Below the pieces are notes generated by a model. The model did not search any database. It had not been told where the DNA came from and was given only the letters and a program-made list of their open reading frames with translations. Source: Propionispira arboris (lineage in GTDB: Bacteria; Bacillota; Negativicutes; Selenomonadales; Selenomonadaceae). From it: 64,000 nucleotides of DNA. How positions within the stretch are numbered: position 1 is the first letter of the stretch; each line of letters begins with the position of its first letter. The stretch lies in the NCBI RefSeq assembly GCF_900109225.1, contig NZ_FNZK01000003.1:62001-126000 (forward strand), in the 5' to 3' direction. Both the position numbers and the translations under genes were made by a program. Below are positions 31,048-56,472 of this stretch, one piece after another.

Positions 31048-31196
31048 TATATATAACGCATTAAAGAAATTCCATCCAGTCTACCAGTCTGCCAAAATGA
31101 GGTATAGGGCATCGTTTGCTTCCTACGTAACGCCACGGAGCCCTATACCCCATTCTTGACGATTGCCATATAAAATGTTTAATGCGTTCTATATAT
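31048..31196 (+). repeat. Dispersed terminally inverted element, copy B (longest intact form)
   Basis: About 149 bp between the rbgA terminator and rnhB. The ends ATATAACGCATTAAAG and TTTAATGCGTTCTATAT are inverted repeats of about 20 bp. Inner arms GGTATAGGGC and GCCCTATACC form a hairpin with a loop containing GTAACGCCACG. The right end carries TGACGATTGCC. It has no coding frame. Copy C matches over almost the full length, copies A, D, E and F over parts. Confidence 0.8.
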
Positions 31197-31243: not shown

Positions 31244-32011
31244 ATGGATATTCAAAAAATGACGATAAAAGAAATAGAGATATTAGTTAAGCAAAAAGAT
31301 TTAAAGGCAGAAACAATCACAGCGTTAACAAATGATACACGCAGTGCGGTTCAGAGACTTTTTCGTAAATGGGAACGTGAGCAAAATGAAATACAGCGAG
31401 TCGATGCTTTATATAAATATGAATATCAATTTCAAAAGCAAGGCATTGAATACATTGCTGGTGTAGATGAGGCTGGACGTGGACCTTTAGCTGGTCCTGT
31501 ATTTGTCGCTTCTGTTATTTTACCGATCGGTTTATATATTCCTAAAATAAATGATTCAAAAAAAATATCAGCGAAAGTCAGAGAGTCAATTTATGAATTG
31601 CTGATAAAAGAAGCAATTGCTATTGAAAGATCAATTGTGGATGAGAAAACGATTGATCGGATTAATATTTATCAAGCAACGATTAATGGTATGTATAATG
31701 CGATTTTATCACTAAAGCCAAAACCACAGCAGGTTTTGATTGATGCAGTTCCTTTAGAACAACTAGAGATACCATCATTGTCTTTGATAAAAGGAGATGC
31801 TATCAGTGCTTCAATTGCAGCAGCCTCAATTGTGGCAAAAGTAGAACGTGATCATATGATGGATGAATATGATAAAATGTATCCTGAATATGGTTTTGCG
31901 CAGCACAAGGGATATGGAACAGCCCAACATGTAGCGGCTCTTAAAAAATACGGTCCTTGCCCAATCCATCGTCGCTCTTTTGAACCAGTGAAGTCGCTTG
32001 TGAAGTGTTAA
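31244..32011 (+). CDS. rnhB: Ribonuclease HII
   Basis: A 255-residue RNase H2. The catalytic DEAGRGPLAGPV lies at about residues 74-85, with DAVPLEQL and the C-terminal GFAQHKGYGTAQH typical of RnhB. The extra N-terminal 70 residues (coiled, basic) are the usual Firmicutes extension. It removes ribonucleotides from DNA. The ribosome-binding site is weak (GATGGGGCG about 14 bases upstream). Confidence 0.95.
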   Translation: MDIQKMTIKEIEILVKQKDLKAETITALTNDTRSAVQRLFRKWEREQNEIQRVDALYKYEYQFQKQGIEYIAGVDEAGRGPLAGPVFVASVILPIGLYIPKINDSKKISAKVRESIYELLIKEAIAIERSIVDEKTIDRINIYQATINGMYNAILSLKPKPQQVLIDAVPLEQLEIPSLSLIKGDAISASIAAASIVAKVERDHMMDEYDKMYPEYGFAQHKGYGTAQHVAALKKYGPCPIHRRSFEPVKSLVKC

Positions 32012-32027
32012 GTATGGAGGAATAACT

Positions 32028-34046
32028 ATGGCAATAGAAACGAATGCTGCGGGTGTAAATAATATATCTCCAGTAGAACGGACACAACCTATTTCAAATA
32101 ATAGCACAGTCATTAATGAAGAAGTAGGCGATCAAGCAAGTTCGCCTTTTCAGCCACAAACACATGTAACAATAGAAAATTCAGTAACGGACATGCTGAA
32201 TGTGTTATCAAAAGCTGCAACAGAGACCGCAGATGGAACACAAAAAATACCGGCTGAATTACAGAAATTTATCAATACTTTGCTGCAAAATTCTTTTTCG
32301 GTAGATTCTTCTTTAGCAGAAGGTCTTGGTAGTGTGTTGCAAAGCCAACGGTTTACGCTTGATCAATTGCATGTCGCAGCAAAAATTTTAGATCAAATGG
32401 GCACTCTGGCAGAAATGGATCAAGCAAATGTTTTACCGGATGATTTGAAAATACTTTTAAGTAATTTAACGCAGTTAGATGGAAATAACGGAAAAACGCT
32501 TAATTCCGTAAATTTGATGAAAATGGCATTTCAATTGTTAGAGGGGAAATCAATCGAAGATTTTCCTGCACAATTACAACTTTTGCTAGGAAATAGCAGT
32601 CGTTCTATGCCCGCTTTGCCACAATCAGAAACGGAAAGTTTAGGCTTTTTGAAACAGTTGGTTAAAATGTTTTTGCCGACACCTTCCTCGATAAATGCTG
32701 CATCGCAAAATCAGCAAAATATGGGACAGCCTAACGCATCCTCAACCACGGCTTCAACGAATGTACCTCAGCAAAAATTAGGAACAGGCAATTTGGAAAA
32801 TGAAAATCAAACGGTGGCGACGAATACAAAACAATCAATGCCAAATGAAGGCAGTCCAAGAAATCCCTTACAGACAACAACACAGTCTTTGGCTTCGGCA
32901 ACTTATGCCATGCAGAAAAATTTTGGTACAGCAAATGAAAATTTACTGAATACGATGACACTGCAGGAGCCTATTGAAGATTCATTAAATGAATCGATGG
33001 ATCAAGAAAATGGAGCCAACAAACAAAATAATCAAGCTGGAACCAATCCACAAATGAAAGGGCAAGCAATGGCTTCTTCTTTACAGCAAAATGCAGGGAC
33101 GAGAACCTTGGCAAATGATACATTAAATCAGCCACTTACCACAAAAACGGATGCAACCTTATCAAGTCATGGTACATCAGCTGAAACTGAATCGATGGAT
33201 CAACAAGCCAACAAGCAAAATAATCAAGCTGGAACCAATCCACAAATGAAAGGGCAAGCAATGGCTTCTTCCTTACTGCAAAATGCAGAGACGAGAACCT
33301 TGGCAAATGATACATTAAAGCAGACAGTGGGCACAAAGACGGATTCCAATCTGACTTTAACAAATGCTGGTACGGCTGGATTTGATGAAAATGAAATGAT
33401 GCAAACACAAACTAAACTGCAAAATTCTACAGGATCCGTACCTGGTCAAGCCAATTCTACTATGATGAGACAATTCGTAGTAAGTTCAGCTGTGAATCCG
33501 CAAACCTTGAGTCAACTACTCGCATCGCCGCTGGAAAATACAGAGCAGACGATGCAGACATTGAAAAATTTAGCAAACCAGCTGATGAATAACTCTTCAT
33601 TAGATGAAAAAAGTCTTATTTTGTTGAAAAATTTTATGAATAACAAACAGCAAATGATGCCTGAAGAAGATGCAAAGCAATTGCAACTGTTACTGAAACT
33701 CAGCGAAAAAAACATACCAACATCTATTTCACAGGCGGCAATCAAGCAAAACCTGCCTGAATTACCAAAACTATGGACATTTGTTCAACTGTGTGATTTG
33801 AGTGAATTAAAGGATATGCAAGCGAATGAATTAAAAAATGCCAGTAAAAATATGAACGATTTTGCCTCGCTATTACGTAAATCAATGGGGAATGAAAACT
33901 CAATTTCGGAAAATCATCGGTCGATGGCATTTATGACACCGCTGTATTTAGGTGAGAATCAAAAAAATTATCCAACCTATGTTCATATATATGACCAGTC
34001 TGAAAATGAGAATGGTCAAAATAATGAAAAAAAGAAACTTGGCTGA
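32028..34046 (+). CDS. FliK-like (flagellar hook-length-control-like) protein, 0-frame part
   Basis: A 672-residue glutamine-, asparagine- and serine-rich protein without signal peptide. The helical N-terminal part (about 50-230) is followed by a low-complexity region (about 225-480) with an internal direct duplication. The C-terminal part (about 560-665) has TPLYLGENQKNYPTYVHIYD, resembling FliK-like proteins encoded between rnhB and an FlhB-like gene in Negativicutes. It is preceded by TGGAGGAATAACT. The frame ends in TGA at 34044. The conserved-looking C-terminal tail continues in the -1 frame (see 34028-34249). Function is inferred from family resemblance and the FlhB-like neighbour; no flagellar genes are in the window. 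Confidence 0.65.
   Translation: MAIETNAAGVNNISPVERTQPISNNSTVINEEVGDQASSPFQPQTHVTIENSVTDMLNVLSKAATETADGTQKIPAELQKFINTLLQNSFSVDSSLAEGLGSVLQSQRFTLDQLHVAAKILDQMGTLAEMDQANVLPDDLKILLSNLTQLDGNNGKTLNSVNLMKMAFQLLEGKSIEDFPAQLQLLLGNSSRSMPALPQSETESLGFLKQLVKMFLPTPSSINAASQNQQNMGQPNASSTTASTNVPQQKLGTGNLENENQTVATNTKQSMPNEGSPRNPLQTTTQSLASATYAMQKNFGTANENLLNTMTLQEPIEDSLNESMDQENGANKQNNQAGTNPQMKGQAMASSLQQNAGTRTLANDTLNQPLTTKTDATLSSHGTSAETESMDQQANKQNNQAGTNPQMKGQAMASSLLQNAETRTLANDTLKQTVGTKTDSNLTLTNAGTAGFDENEMMQTQTKLQNSTGSVPGQANSTMMRQFVVSSAVNPQTLSQLLASPLENTEQTMQTLKNLANQLMNNSSLDEKSLILLKNFMNNKQQMMPEEDAKQLQLLLKLSEKNIPTSISQAAIKQNLPELPKLWTFVQLCDLSELKDMQANELKNASKNMNDFASLLRKSMGNENSISENHRSMAFMTPLYLGENQKNYPTYVHIYDQSENENGQNNEKKKLG
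33015..33324 (+). repeat. Internal direct duplication in the FliK-like gene
   Basis: A unit of about 118 bp at 33015-33132 recurs at 33207-33324 with a 192-base offset and about 95% identity. It encodes NKQNNQAGTNPQMKGQAMAS twice, with matching residues continuing after it. The high DNA identity indicates a recent in-frame duplication within the low-complexity linker. Confidence 0.9.
34027..34034 (+). other. Candidate -1 slippery site (A AAA AAG)
   Basis: In the FliK-like frame the codons are GAA AAA AAG, so the heptamer A AAA AAG sits in the phase required for a -1 shift, as in dnaX of Escherichia coli. After the shift the reading is AAA AAA GAA ACT TGG. A small stem (GAGAC/GTCTT) lies about 12 bases downstream; it is weak. 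The A7 run would also support transcriptional slippage. Confidence 0.5.
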
Positions 34047-34249
34047 GACTTTGTCTTCTTACCGAAAATATTGGTGCGGTAGAAATGGTATTTCGATTGT
34101 ATGAAAAAGAAAATATAAATGTGCGGCTGTCTTTTTCAAATACAGACATGGTAGAGTCGTTTAATCAATATATACCAGAACTGAAAGCTTCTTTTGAAAA
34201 TTATCCTTTGGTTTTGAAAGATTTTAAAGTGCGGGCGATAGGTGAATAA
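34028..34249 (+). CDS. FliK-like protein, C-terminal tail in -1 frame
   Basis: This frame is closed by TGA at 34025-34027 and then open to TAA at 34247-34249. It encodes KK-ETWLRLCLLTENIGAVE, then VFRLYEKENINVRLSFS, and ends in KVRAIGE. The 70-odd residues look like a genuine C-terminal domain continuing the upstream protein. The tail has no start codon or ribosome-binding site of its own near its beginning. It could be joined by programmed -1 frameshifting, by polymerase slippage in the A7 run, or the gene may be broken or mis-sequenced by one missing A. The FlhB-like ATG follows 2 bases after the stop. Confidence 0.6.
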   Translation, partial: KKETWLRLCLLTENIGAVEMVFRLYEKENINVRLSFSNTDMVESFNQYIPELKASFENYPLVLKDFKVRAIGE

Positions 34250-34251
34250 CT

Positions 34252-34554
34252 ATGATCAATGATGAAAAAAGTGAAAAACAAGAAACTATTAAAGCCGTTG
34301 CCTTACAATATAGGGAAGATGAAAATACGGCACCAAAAATTATTGCAAAAGGTAAGGGGAACGTTGCAGAAAACATTCTGCTTACTGCGCAAAATAATGC
34401 TGTGCCTGTCTATAAGAATAAAACATTAACAGCAATGCTTATGGCACTTGAAATTGATAAGGAAATCCCACCAGATCTGTATGCCATGGTTGCTGAAGTT
34501 TTAGCGTATGTATATCGAATGGACCAAAAAAGAATGAAGGATTTTAATTTGTAA
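34252..34554 (+). CDS. FlhB C-terminal-like protein (EscU/YscU/HrcU export switch type)
   Basis: A 100-residue cytoplasmic protein equivalent to the C-terminal domain of FlhB: IKAVALQYREDENTAPKIIAKG, then VPVYKNKTLTAMLMALEIDKEI and MVAEVLAYVYRMDQ. The autocleavage site NPTH of true FlhB is absent; the protein begins just after that point. Stand-alone proteins of this kind (FlhX/YlqH type) follow rnhB and FliK-like genes in Firmicutes. In Bacillus the YlqH/FlhX type can partly replace the FlhB tail. It probably interacts with the FliK-like protein encoded just upstream, but this is inference. Confidence 0.85.
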   Translation: MINDEKSEKQETIKAVALQYREDENTAPKIIAKGKGNVAENILLTAQNNAVPVYKNKTLTAMLMALEIDKEIPPDLYAMVAEVLAYVYRMDQKRMKDFNL

Positions 34555-34556
34555 TG

Positions 34557-34707
34557 TTATATAGAATGTATTAAATAAATGATATCTAGCCTATTAGTCT
34601 GTCGGGAATTTAGTACAGGGCATCGTTTGATTCCTCCGTAACGCCACGCAACCCTATACCAAATTCCTGACGATTGCCATATAAAATATTTAATGTAACT
34701 TATGATA
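34557..34707 (+). repeat. Dispersed terminally inverted element, copy C
   Basis: About 151 bp starting two bases after the FlhB-like stop codon. It begins TATATAGAATGTATTAAAT, contains the central GCATCGTTTGATTCC and GTAACGCCACG nearly identical to copy B, and ends TGACGATTGCC, TTTAATGTAACTTATGATA. Inner arms and ends have diverged more than the central block. No coding frame. Confidence 0.78.
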
Positions 34708-50326: not shown

Positions 50327-50359
50327 ATAGTGTTGCTTTATTTATCAATTTAGAATTCT

Positions 50360-50376
50360 ATCGAAACGGTTCCTTT
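50360..50376 (+). promoter_or_regulatory. Operator-like box upstream of the porin gene
   Basis: TATCGAAACGGTTCCTT; on the minus strand it contains GGAACCGTTTC, one base shorter than the GGAACCGATTTC of the scrA box. It lies 160 bases before the porin ATG in the scrA-porin gap. It could also be a catabolite (cre-like) site. Confidence 0.4.
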
Positions 50377-50535
50377 ACCATGTATTCAATAAAAAACATT
50401 AAGTGGATCAACAAATGTTCAAAAGGTATTTTGAGGCAGCGGCAACTGTTTTTTTTATACAAAGAACTATATTGATCAACTTTAAAGATTACTCAGAGAG
50501 TGCAGTGAAATTATAAAACATGAGGGGTAATGAAA

Positions 50536-51870
50536 ATGAATATGAGAAAAAATACGATATGTGTACTTACAGCAGCAATTTTTTTGGCAACAACTGGAAC
50601 CGGTTCCGCAAATAAAAATCCATTTGCCGATGTGCTACAGGGCGATTGGTCATATAATGCGATTGAAAGTTTAATCCACAAAGGTATGGTTCGTGGTTAT
50701 GATGATATGAGCTTACCTAAAAATCAGATCCTTACACGTAATGAAATGGCTGTACTTGTGGCAAAAGCCATGTCTAAAGACAATATGGCTGATGCGGATA
50801 CAAAAGTAGTACTTGATAATTTAGCCAAAGAGTATTCGGATGAATTGCAAGCAATTGGTGTGTACAATGAAAAAACACAAGGGCCTGTTGTCAAAGAAAA
50901 CAAACTAGATCGTTTGAGCTTTGATGGAATGGGACGGATACGTTTTGATAAAGGCAATACGGGCGGATTGACCGTTCAAAGGGGAACAAAGCAAGGCAGC
51001 TATACACCCAATAGTCACATTAATATTGATATAAACTATGCTTATAAAATTAATGATGCGTGGTCTTTACATGGTGAAAATGAGTACGGACGTCAATTAA
51101 ATTATGGTGGCGAAAATGAAACGCTGCAGCATTCTGTTTTTGAACAAATGTATTTAGCGGGACCCGTTTTACCAAATGTAAATATTAAAGCTGGTCGATT
51201 TAGTGCCTATTCGCCACAGGGACTTGTATACGATGATAAAGTAACGGGTGCACAGATTTCCTTTGGTAACGTAGTGAAAACAACATTAGAAGGTGGTTTG
51301 GCAACTTCTACCGATGATGATACAACCGTTACGATTGATGGCACAAATTATGAATATAAGTCGGGAAATTATCAAGCGGCATTATTTGATGTGCCATTAA
51401 GTAAAATAAGCAATATACATTTAGGTTATTATCATATTGGTGGTAATATTTTGCAGCATCAATCTTCGGTCAATGATTATGTCAATTATTATACCGTTGG
51501 GTTCGACAGCAAGGTTGCCGATAATTTAAGTCTTTGTGCAGTTTACGCGAAATCGGATGCGAAAGGAATAGCATCTTCTGGTATTACAAGTACCGATCAA
51601 AAAGCATATCTTATGAAACTTACATATAAAGCGGCTGATTTGACAAAACCAAAAAGCTTTGATGTTTTTGCAATGTATCGGAAAAGTCCGCAACTGGCAA
51701 GTTACAGCAATACCGATGATTGGTGTCAGAATGTAAAAGGAATCCGCATTGGGCTGGATTATGTGTTTACCAAAAATATGGGGCTTACAACTTGGTATGC
51801 ATGGGGAAAAGATGTAGACACAAAAGAAACAAACGATATGTATAGAGTTCAGTGGAATTTCTTATTATAA
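50536..51870 (+). CDS. S-layer homology domain porin (outer membrane)
   Basis: About 444 residues. A signal peptide (MRKNTICVLTAAIFLATTG, then ANKNPF) is followed by one SLH domain (about 28-85: FADVLQGDWSYNAIESL, LTRNEMAVLVAKAM) and a beta-barrel part with alternating strands to the end (YRVQWNFLL). SLH-porins of this type tether the outer membrane to peptidoglycan polyamines in Negativicutes and form channels. Sitting inside the sucrose locus behind an operator-like box, it may serve sucrose or oligosaccharide entry. I prefer the ATG at 50536 (GAGGGG at proper distance); ATGs at 50530 and 50542 are also in frame. Confidence 0.85.
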   Translation: MNMRKNTICVLTAAIFLATTGTGSANKNPFADVLQGDWSYNAIESLIHKGMVRGYDDMSLPKNQILTRNEMAVLVAKAMSKDNMADADTKVVLDNLAKEYSDELQAIGVYNEKTQGPVVKENKLDRLSFDGMGRIRFDKGNTGGLTVQRGTKQGSYTPNSHINIDINYAYKINDAWSLHGENEYGRQLNYGGENETLQHSVFEQMYLAGPVLPNVNIKAGRFSAYSPQGLVYDDKVTGAQISFGNVVKTTLEGGLATSTDDDTTVTIDGTNYEYKSGNYQAALFDVPLSKISNIHLGYYHIGGNILQHQSSVNDYVNYYTVGFDSKVADNLSLCAVYAKSDAKGIASSGITSTDQKAYLMKLTYKAADLTKPKSFDVFAMYRKSPQLASYSNTDDWCQNVKGIRIGLDYVFTKNMGLTTWYAWGKDVDTKETNDMYRVQWNFLL

Positions 51871-51901
51871 GATAAAACAATATAACATGTCGATTTCTTT
51901 T

Positions 51902-56230: not shown

Positions 56231-56255
56231 GAATTCGTAAAGTTAATATAAAACA

Positions 56256-56362
56256 GTCTTTGAGGCGGGGTGTGATTCCCTACCGGCGGTATAGCCCGCA
56301 AGCCGAAAGGCAAGATCCGGTTGGATTCCGGAGCCGACAGTACAGTCTGGATGAGAAAAGAC
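56256..56362 (+). promoter_or_regulatory. FMN riboswitch (RFN element)
   Basis: Closing stem GTCTTT/AAAGAC, then AGGCGGGGTGTGATTCCCTA, CCGGCGGTATAGCCCGC, AAGCCGAAAGGC, AAGATCCGGT and GAGCCGACAGTACAGTCTGG ATGAGA, all conserved RFN segments in order. FMN binding would favour the downstream terminator at 56412, shutting off ribDEBAH. Confidence 0.95.
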
Positions 56363-56411
56363 AAAAATTTAGAATGCATTTTTGTGTAGTTTTTTTGTAT
56401 ATGCGTTTTGG

Positions 56412-56450: not shown

Positions 56451-56472
56451 AGTGGAAAAGTGGGGCGATGAA

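Follow-up and report, generated by a model that had tools for sequence, protein, structure and literature searches.

A FliK-like gene of Propionispira arboris split at an A AAA AAG heptamer: very probably a private one-base loss and no programmed frameshift

In dnaX-type systems, ribosomes undergo programmed −1 frameshifting at in-phase heptamers of the form X XXY YYZ, and one of these, A_AAA_AAG, is described in the available part of a published survey of stimulators (PMC4066793) as being among the most efficient motifs in Escherichia coli, provided that stimulators are present. The rescue of disrupted ORFs at runs of A has also been described: in the extract of that account on which we draw (PMC1088944), selection against slippery A/T runs is evident at nine bases in many genomes, and runs of eight bases are thought to be productive for slippage in some organisms. 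A third parallel is provided by the GeneTack survey (PMC3711429), in the available portion of which single, unclustered frameshifts are expected to be sequencing errors where intact homologues confirm them, and indels otherwise; frameshifts are also over-represented towards the ends of genes, and this is linked to real indels. The FliK-like gene considered here resembles a dnaX-type site in its in-phase A AAA AAG, but differs from it in that the motif is not conserved, no stimulators were found, and the short product is not bounded by a domain. Its likeness to the singleton frameshifted genes, as these appear in that portion of the GeneTack survey, lies in its occurrence in one genome, at a homopolymer, with intact homologues that span the break.

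The gene is located in a window of 64,000 nucleotides (the whole stretch of DNA that was analysed), where its 0-frame part occupies positions 32028–34046 of the forward strand (672 codons, ending with the TGA at 34044–34046). From 34026, the codons of this frame read directly as GAA AAA AAG AAA CTT GGC TGA: a run of seven A residues (A7; 34027–34033, forward strand) is followed immediately on its 3′ side by G34034, and the in-phase heptamer A AAA AAG spans 34028–34034 of the same strand. The −1 frame is shut by the TGA at 34025–34027 and is thereafter open for 73 codons (34028–34246) up to a stop at 34247–34249, such that the −1 frame tail (34028–34249 of the forward strand, stop included) overlaps the 0 frame by 19 bases (34028–34046). 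All of this agrees with a previous sequence-only reading, which had given both stops, an open frame of about 72 codons, an overlap of about 19 bases and a GAA AAA AAG in the X XXY YYZ phase.

Just upstream, also on the forward strand, lies the ribonuclease HII gene (rnhB; 31244–32011; Pfam RNase_HII, E 6.6e-39), and just downstream, at 34252–34554 of the forward strand, a stand-alone FlhB C-terminal-like protein of 100 residues is encoded (Pfam Bac_export_2 positions 262–335, E 9.4e-21), the top NCBIfam match of which, TIGR00789 flhB_rel, scores 92.2 bits, under the cut-off of 117.35. The latter gene adjoins the FliK-like gene and has housekeeping genes around it. The cluster of these three genes is flanked by an intergenic repeat with the core GGGCATCGTTTG-TTCCT-CGTAACGCCAC, at 31107–31136 and 34618–34647; at neither site was an Rfam family matched at the gathering score. 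Additionally, alignment with the relative discussed below revealed that the FliK-like gene carries, at its middle, an internal repeat of ~165 bases (32987–33156 and 33184–33344).

The closest relative among the genomes compared is P. raffinosivorans DSM 20765, the one other species of the genus Propionispira in the comparison, which aligns with the window in two long blocks (97.3% and 94.9%). At the equivalent spot, it has a run of eight A residues (A8) within an unbroken gene of 742 codons; the two junctions thus differ by one base, as the sequence-only reading had allowed in its alternative of a simple loss of one A, from A8 to A7. The 0-frame part shares 92% amino acid identity with residues 1–672 of the 742-residue P. 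raffinosivorans protein, and all 73 residues of the tail are identical to the in-frame end of that protein (100%), which places the open −1 frame beyond chance. In the tail, there are five synonymous substitutions and none that change an amino acid, compared with 80 and 55, respectively, in the rest of the gene. Five out of five synonymous changes would have a chance of ~0.0005 in the absence of constraint; the tail and the remainder of the gene do not, however, differ significantly in this respect (Fisher p 0.16). Under simple assumptions, and depending on the rate used, the tail has been free of constraint for at most ~19–43% of this branch, suggesting that the loss of the A is either recent or not real.

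The surroundings of the junction show a further peculiarity: relative to P. raffinosivorans, five substitutions (34018, 34039, 34045, 34048 and 34063) cluster with the indel in 46 bases, amid sequence that is elsewhere almost identical. Outside this cluster, a single substitution is found in the other 183 bases of the tail. The four cluster substitutions that fall within the tail are all synonymous there and, therefore, look like real substitutions rather than random miscalls; moreover, the 0-frame TGA at 34044–34046 depends on one member of the cluster (34045). The cluster is a counterpoint to the reading of the split as a one-base loss.

The tail comprises most of a conserved C-terminal domain of FliK type and is part of the FliK-like gene. 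It matches the Pfam family Flg_hook (PF02120) with an E-value of 1.4e-6 and 28.4 bits over profile positions 13–78 of 85, just under the curated cut-off of 29.8 bits; the end of the P. raffinosivorans protein, taken at two lengths, scores 27.7 and 29.1 bits against the same profile, and the match of the gene was again under the cut-off in a genome-wide profile search. The full 742-residue P. raffinosivorans protein gave no Pfam match, this being obtained with C-terminal pieces only, and nothing was found for the FliK-like protein in NCBIfam. An AlphaFold2 model of the last 143 residues of the P. raffinosivorans protein (mean pLDDT 79.5, pTM 0.69) was compared with the PDB using Foldseek: the PscP SS domain (5cuk) was ranked first (probability 1.00, E 0.027) and the FliK C-terminal domain (2rrl) ninth (probability 0.99, E 0.24), and there was no match at E ≤0.001. 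Thus, the likeness to FliK/YscP-type substrate-switch domains consists of the PF02120 match of the tail and the PscP/FliK fold of the relative's modelled domain, and is qualified by scores just under the cut-off and by weak Foldseek E-values; on this basis, the assignment of the gene as FliK-like in the sequence-only reading is upheld.

The junction corresponds to a loop between strands 50–62 and 71–81 of the model, which is its lowest-confidence region. Most of the C-terminal domain is missing from the 0-frame product: judging from the model, it would retain two strands, with the loss of four others and of two helices, and would not constitute a tidy alternative product. When 25 relatives were aligned (drawn from one fetched set of 31 loci), the junction residues KKETWLRLC (called as K71–L78, plus C79) were all invariant; in loci from other genera, the first two of them are variable.

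Across the family, the tail was present in 132 of the 151 genomes searched, with no match in the other 19. The open frame that holds it amounts to 73 codons in this genome versus 154–1254 in the other 131, of which the shortest, 154 codons, begins near a contig end. Only here, in one of 132 tail-bearing genomes, is the tail a frame by itself; the split is absent from all of the others found. The junction itself was inspected at 61 loci, made up of the best 30 of the 132 family matches together with 31 of 31 from a second set; the sets overlap, with this genome counted once and P. raffinosivorans twice. At least 258 open codons precede the junction at 60 of these loci, and none in this genome. 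The longest single-base run at the junction is of 2–6 bases in 56 of the 61, seven in three (this genome being one) and eight in two (both P. raffinosivorans). A scan of viral contigs found no relative.

Comparison of the wider region with the sister species was carried out in both directions. Of the 136 ORFs of at least 100 residues in the sister, 135 were matched within 144 kb of this genome; the FliK-like gene alone was split across two frames, the other 134 shared ORFs being free of such a split. Five sister ORFs, this gene included, were flagged. Two of the others have a stop (codon 4 of 628 and codon 154 of 158), one, of 106 residues, diverges in its last part, and one is truncated where the stretch ends. 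When the comparison was reversed, 136 of 137 ORFs were matched and four flagged, two for stops (codon 19 of 172 and codon 14 of 127) and two because the match was partial (65 of 101 residues in one, 91 of 100 in the other). No two-frame split was found among these eight other flagged ORFs, and the other non-triplet indels in called ORFs lay near ORF ends, in short ORFs judged to be doubtful or in alignments of paralogues with 67% identity. Elsewhere in the window, a segment of ~1.55 kb (50344–51897) is absent from P. raffinosivorans at the equivalent place; it holds an ORF of 446 residues (50530–51870) for which there was no Pfam match at 1e-3, and which, by eye, resembles an outer-membrane porin, S-layer homology being apparent at its start. 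Additionally, an FMN riboswitch (RF00050, 102.7 bits) is present at 56252–56366, upstream of an ORF at 56452.

We are confident that the split represents a private one-base loss, due to either a sequencing or assembly error or a recent ordinary mutation, and that it is not a programmed frameshift; between error and mutation, the odds are roughly even. The ancestral gene would have been a single frame of ~742 codons, the state that the sister species retains, and one A of the A8 run would have been lost some 73 codons before the gene end, whether in the assembly, through a homopolymer miscall, or in the strain, through replication slippage. If the A7 is real, the protein would be devoid of a working C-terminal substrate-switch domain and the allele would probably be a recent null or near-null, and chance slippage at the A7 could give back a little full-length protein; of regulation, there is no sign. 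A counterpoint is that the gene is otherwise clean, as are the 144 kb around it, which would not be expected if the assembly were poor throughout or the region were decaying. Besides independent reads with A8, the sequence-only reading had named two joint observations as telling against recoding, namely, homologues that are all in frame and decay elsewhere in the gene. The former was made for the homologues found, but the latter was not: decay of the region or elsewhere in the gene was looked for across the 144 kb and not found.

The alternative that fares best is itself a sub-case of a real mutation, and its odds overlap with those given above: a genuine A7 at which slippage of RNA polymerase or the ribosome incidentally restores some full-length protein, without being programmed to do so. 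The described rescue of disrupted ORFs at A runs offers a precedent, and the exclusively synonymous change in the tail is in keeping with it. However, the nine bases at which selection against slippery runs becomes evident in many genomes exceed the run here, which, at seven, is also short of the eight that serve in some organisms (according to the same extract of PMC1088944); furthermore, coding A8 runs are common in this genome (29 in 129 kb) and seemingly tolerated. We, therefore, consider such rescue to be improbable.

In Campylobacter, flagellar genes are known to undergo phase variation at homopolymers, and the run could similarly act as an on/off switch, with the A8 of the sister being 'on' and the A7 of this genome 'off'. 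This is very unlikely: the run is not conserved across the other loci read and is unexceptional in the sampled coding DNA (29 A8 runs and six longer A runs), and one genome per state is no evidence for switching. We would give similarly little credence to a real and recently fixed A7 at which slippage at GAA AAA AAG sustains a second FliK-like protein at a reduced level, that is, a recoding site at birth from an ordinary indel.

The sequence-only reading had put first the possibility of programmed −1 frameshifting or slippage, yielding two FliK-like products, one of which lacks the tail. In support of a dnaX-type event, the heptamer is exact and in phase, the frames overlap by 19 bases, the tail is conserved and the motif is efficient in E. 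coli when accompanied by stimulators. However, the removal of one A from GAA AAA AAA GAA gives GAA AAA AAG AAA with the same phase; hence, the heptamer is a by-product of the one-base difference and not independent evidence. Nor does its occurrence exceed chance: considering ORFs of 100 codons or more, A_AAA_AAG is found in phase seven times in 129,261 coding bases of this genome (this site included) and seven times in 130,443 of P. raffinosivorans, with 29 coding A8 runs in the sample from each genome. To our knowledge, E. coli, where A_AAA_AAG shifts strongly, lacks a tRNA-Lys with a CUU anticodon; here, ARAGORN, applied to 30 of the 73 tRNA matches, identified tRNA-Lys species with UUU and with CUU anticodons, so that the decoding of AAG does not have to rely on the slippery UUU tRNA. 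Convincing stimulators were likewise not found. The Shine–Dalgarno-like words of the published search, as given in the available part of PMC4066793 (GAGG, GGAG, AGGA, GGNGG and AGGKG), are all absent from 34012–34023. Of three downstream stretches compared with shuffled sequences, one folds moderately well (z −1.81, equalled by 7 of 200 shuffles), but the remaining two are ordinary (z −0.32 and −0.05). Moreover, the short product would, according to the model, stop inside a folded domain. In a literature search for FliK and recoding, FliK featured in none of the matches listed. If programmed, the site should be common to relatives, but the split occurs in none of the other 131 tail-bearing genomes, and the sister has A8. 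Overall, programmed frameshifting is highly improbable, and this part of the sequence-only reading is not sustained; its alternative, the loss of one A, is supported. Least credible of all is that the tail is translated, alone or by coupling, as a small gene in its own right: its open frame does adjoin the stop, but the tail forms the C-terminal end of a longer frame in each of the other 131 tail-bearing genomes, and it contains just part of one domain.

The FliK-like gene is not the sole FliK homologue of this genome, as a second gene, on another contig (C24), matches PF02120 more strongly (66.5 bits) and has a 598-codon open frame with no internal stop. If the private one-base loss is real, its effect may, in view of this second gene, be mild. 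In annotations, the split gene should carry a frameshift flag and be named from its intact homologue. The case is mainly a cautionary one: the loss of one base from a Glu-Lys-Lys A8 run before a G is always enough to create an in-phase slippery heptamer, and the motif is, therefore, no evidence for recoding unless it is conserved.
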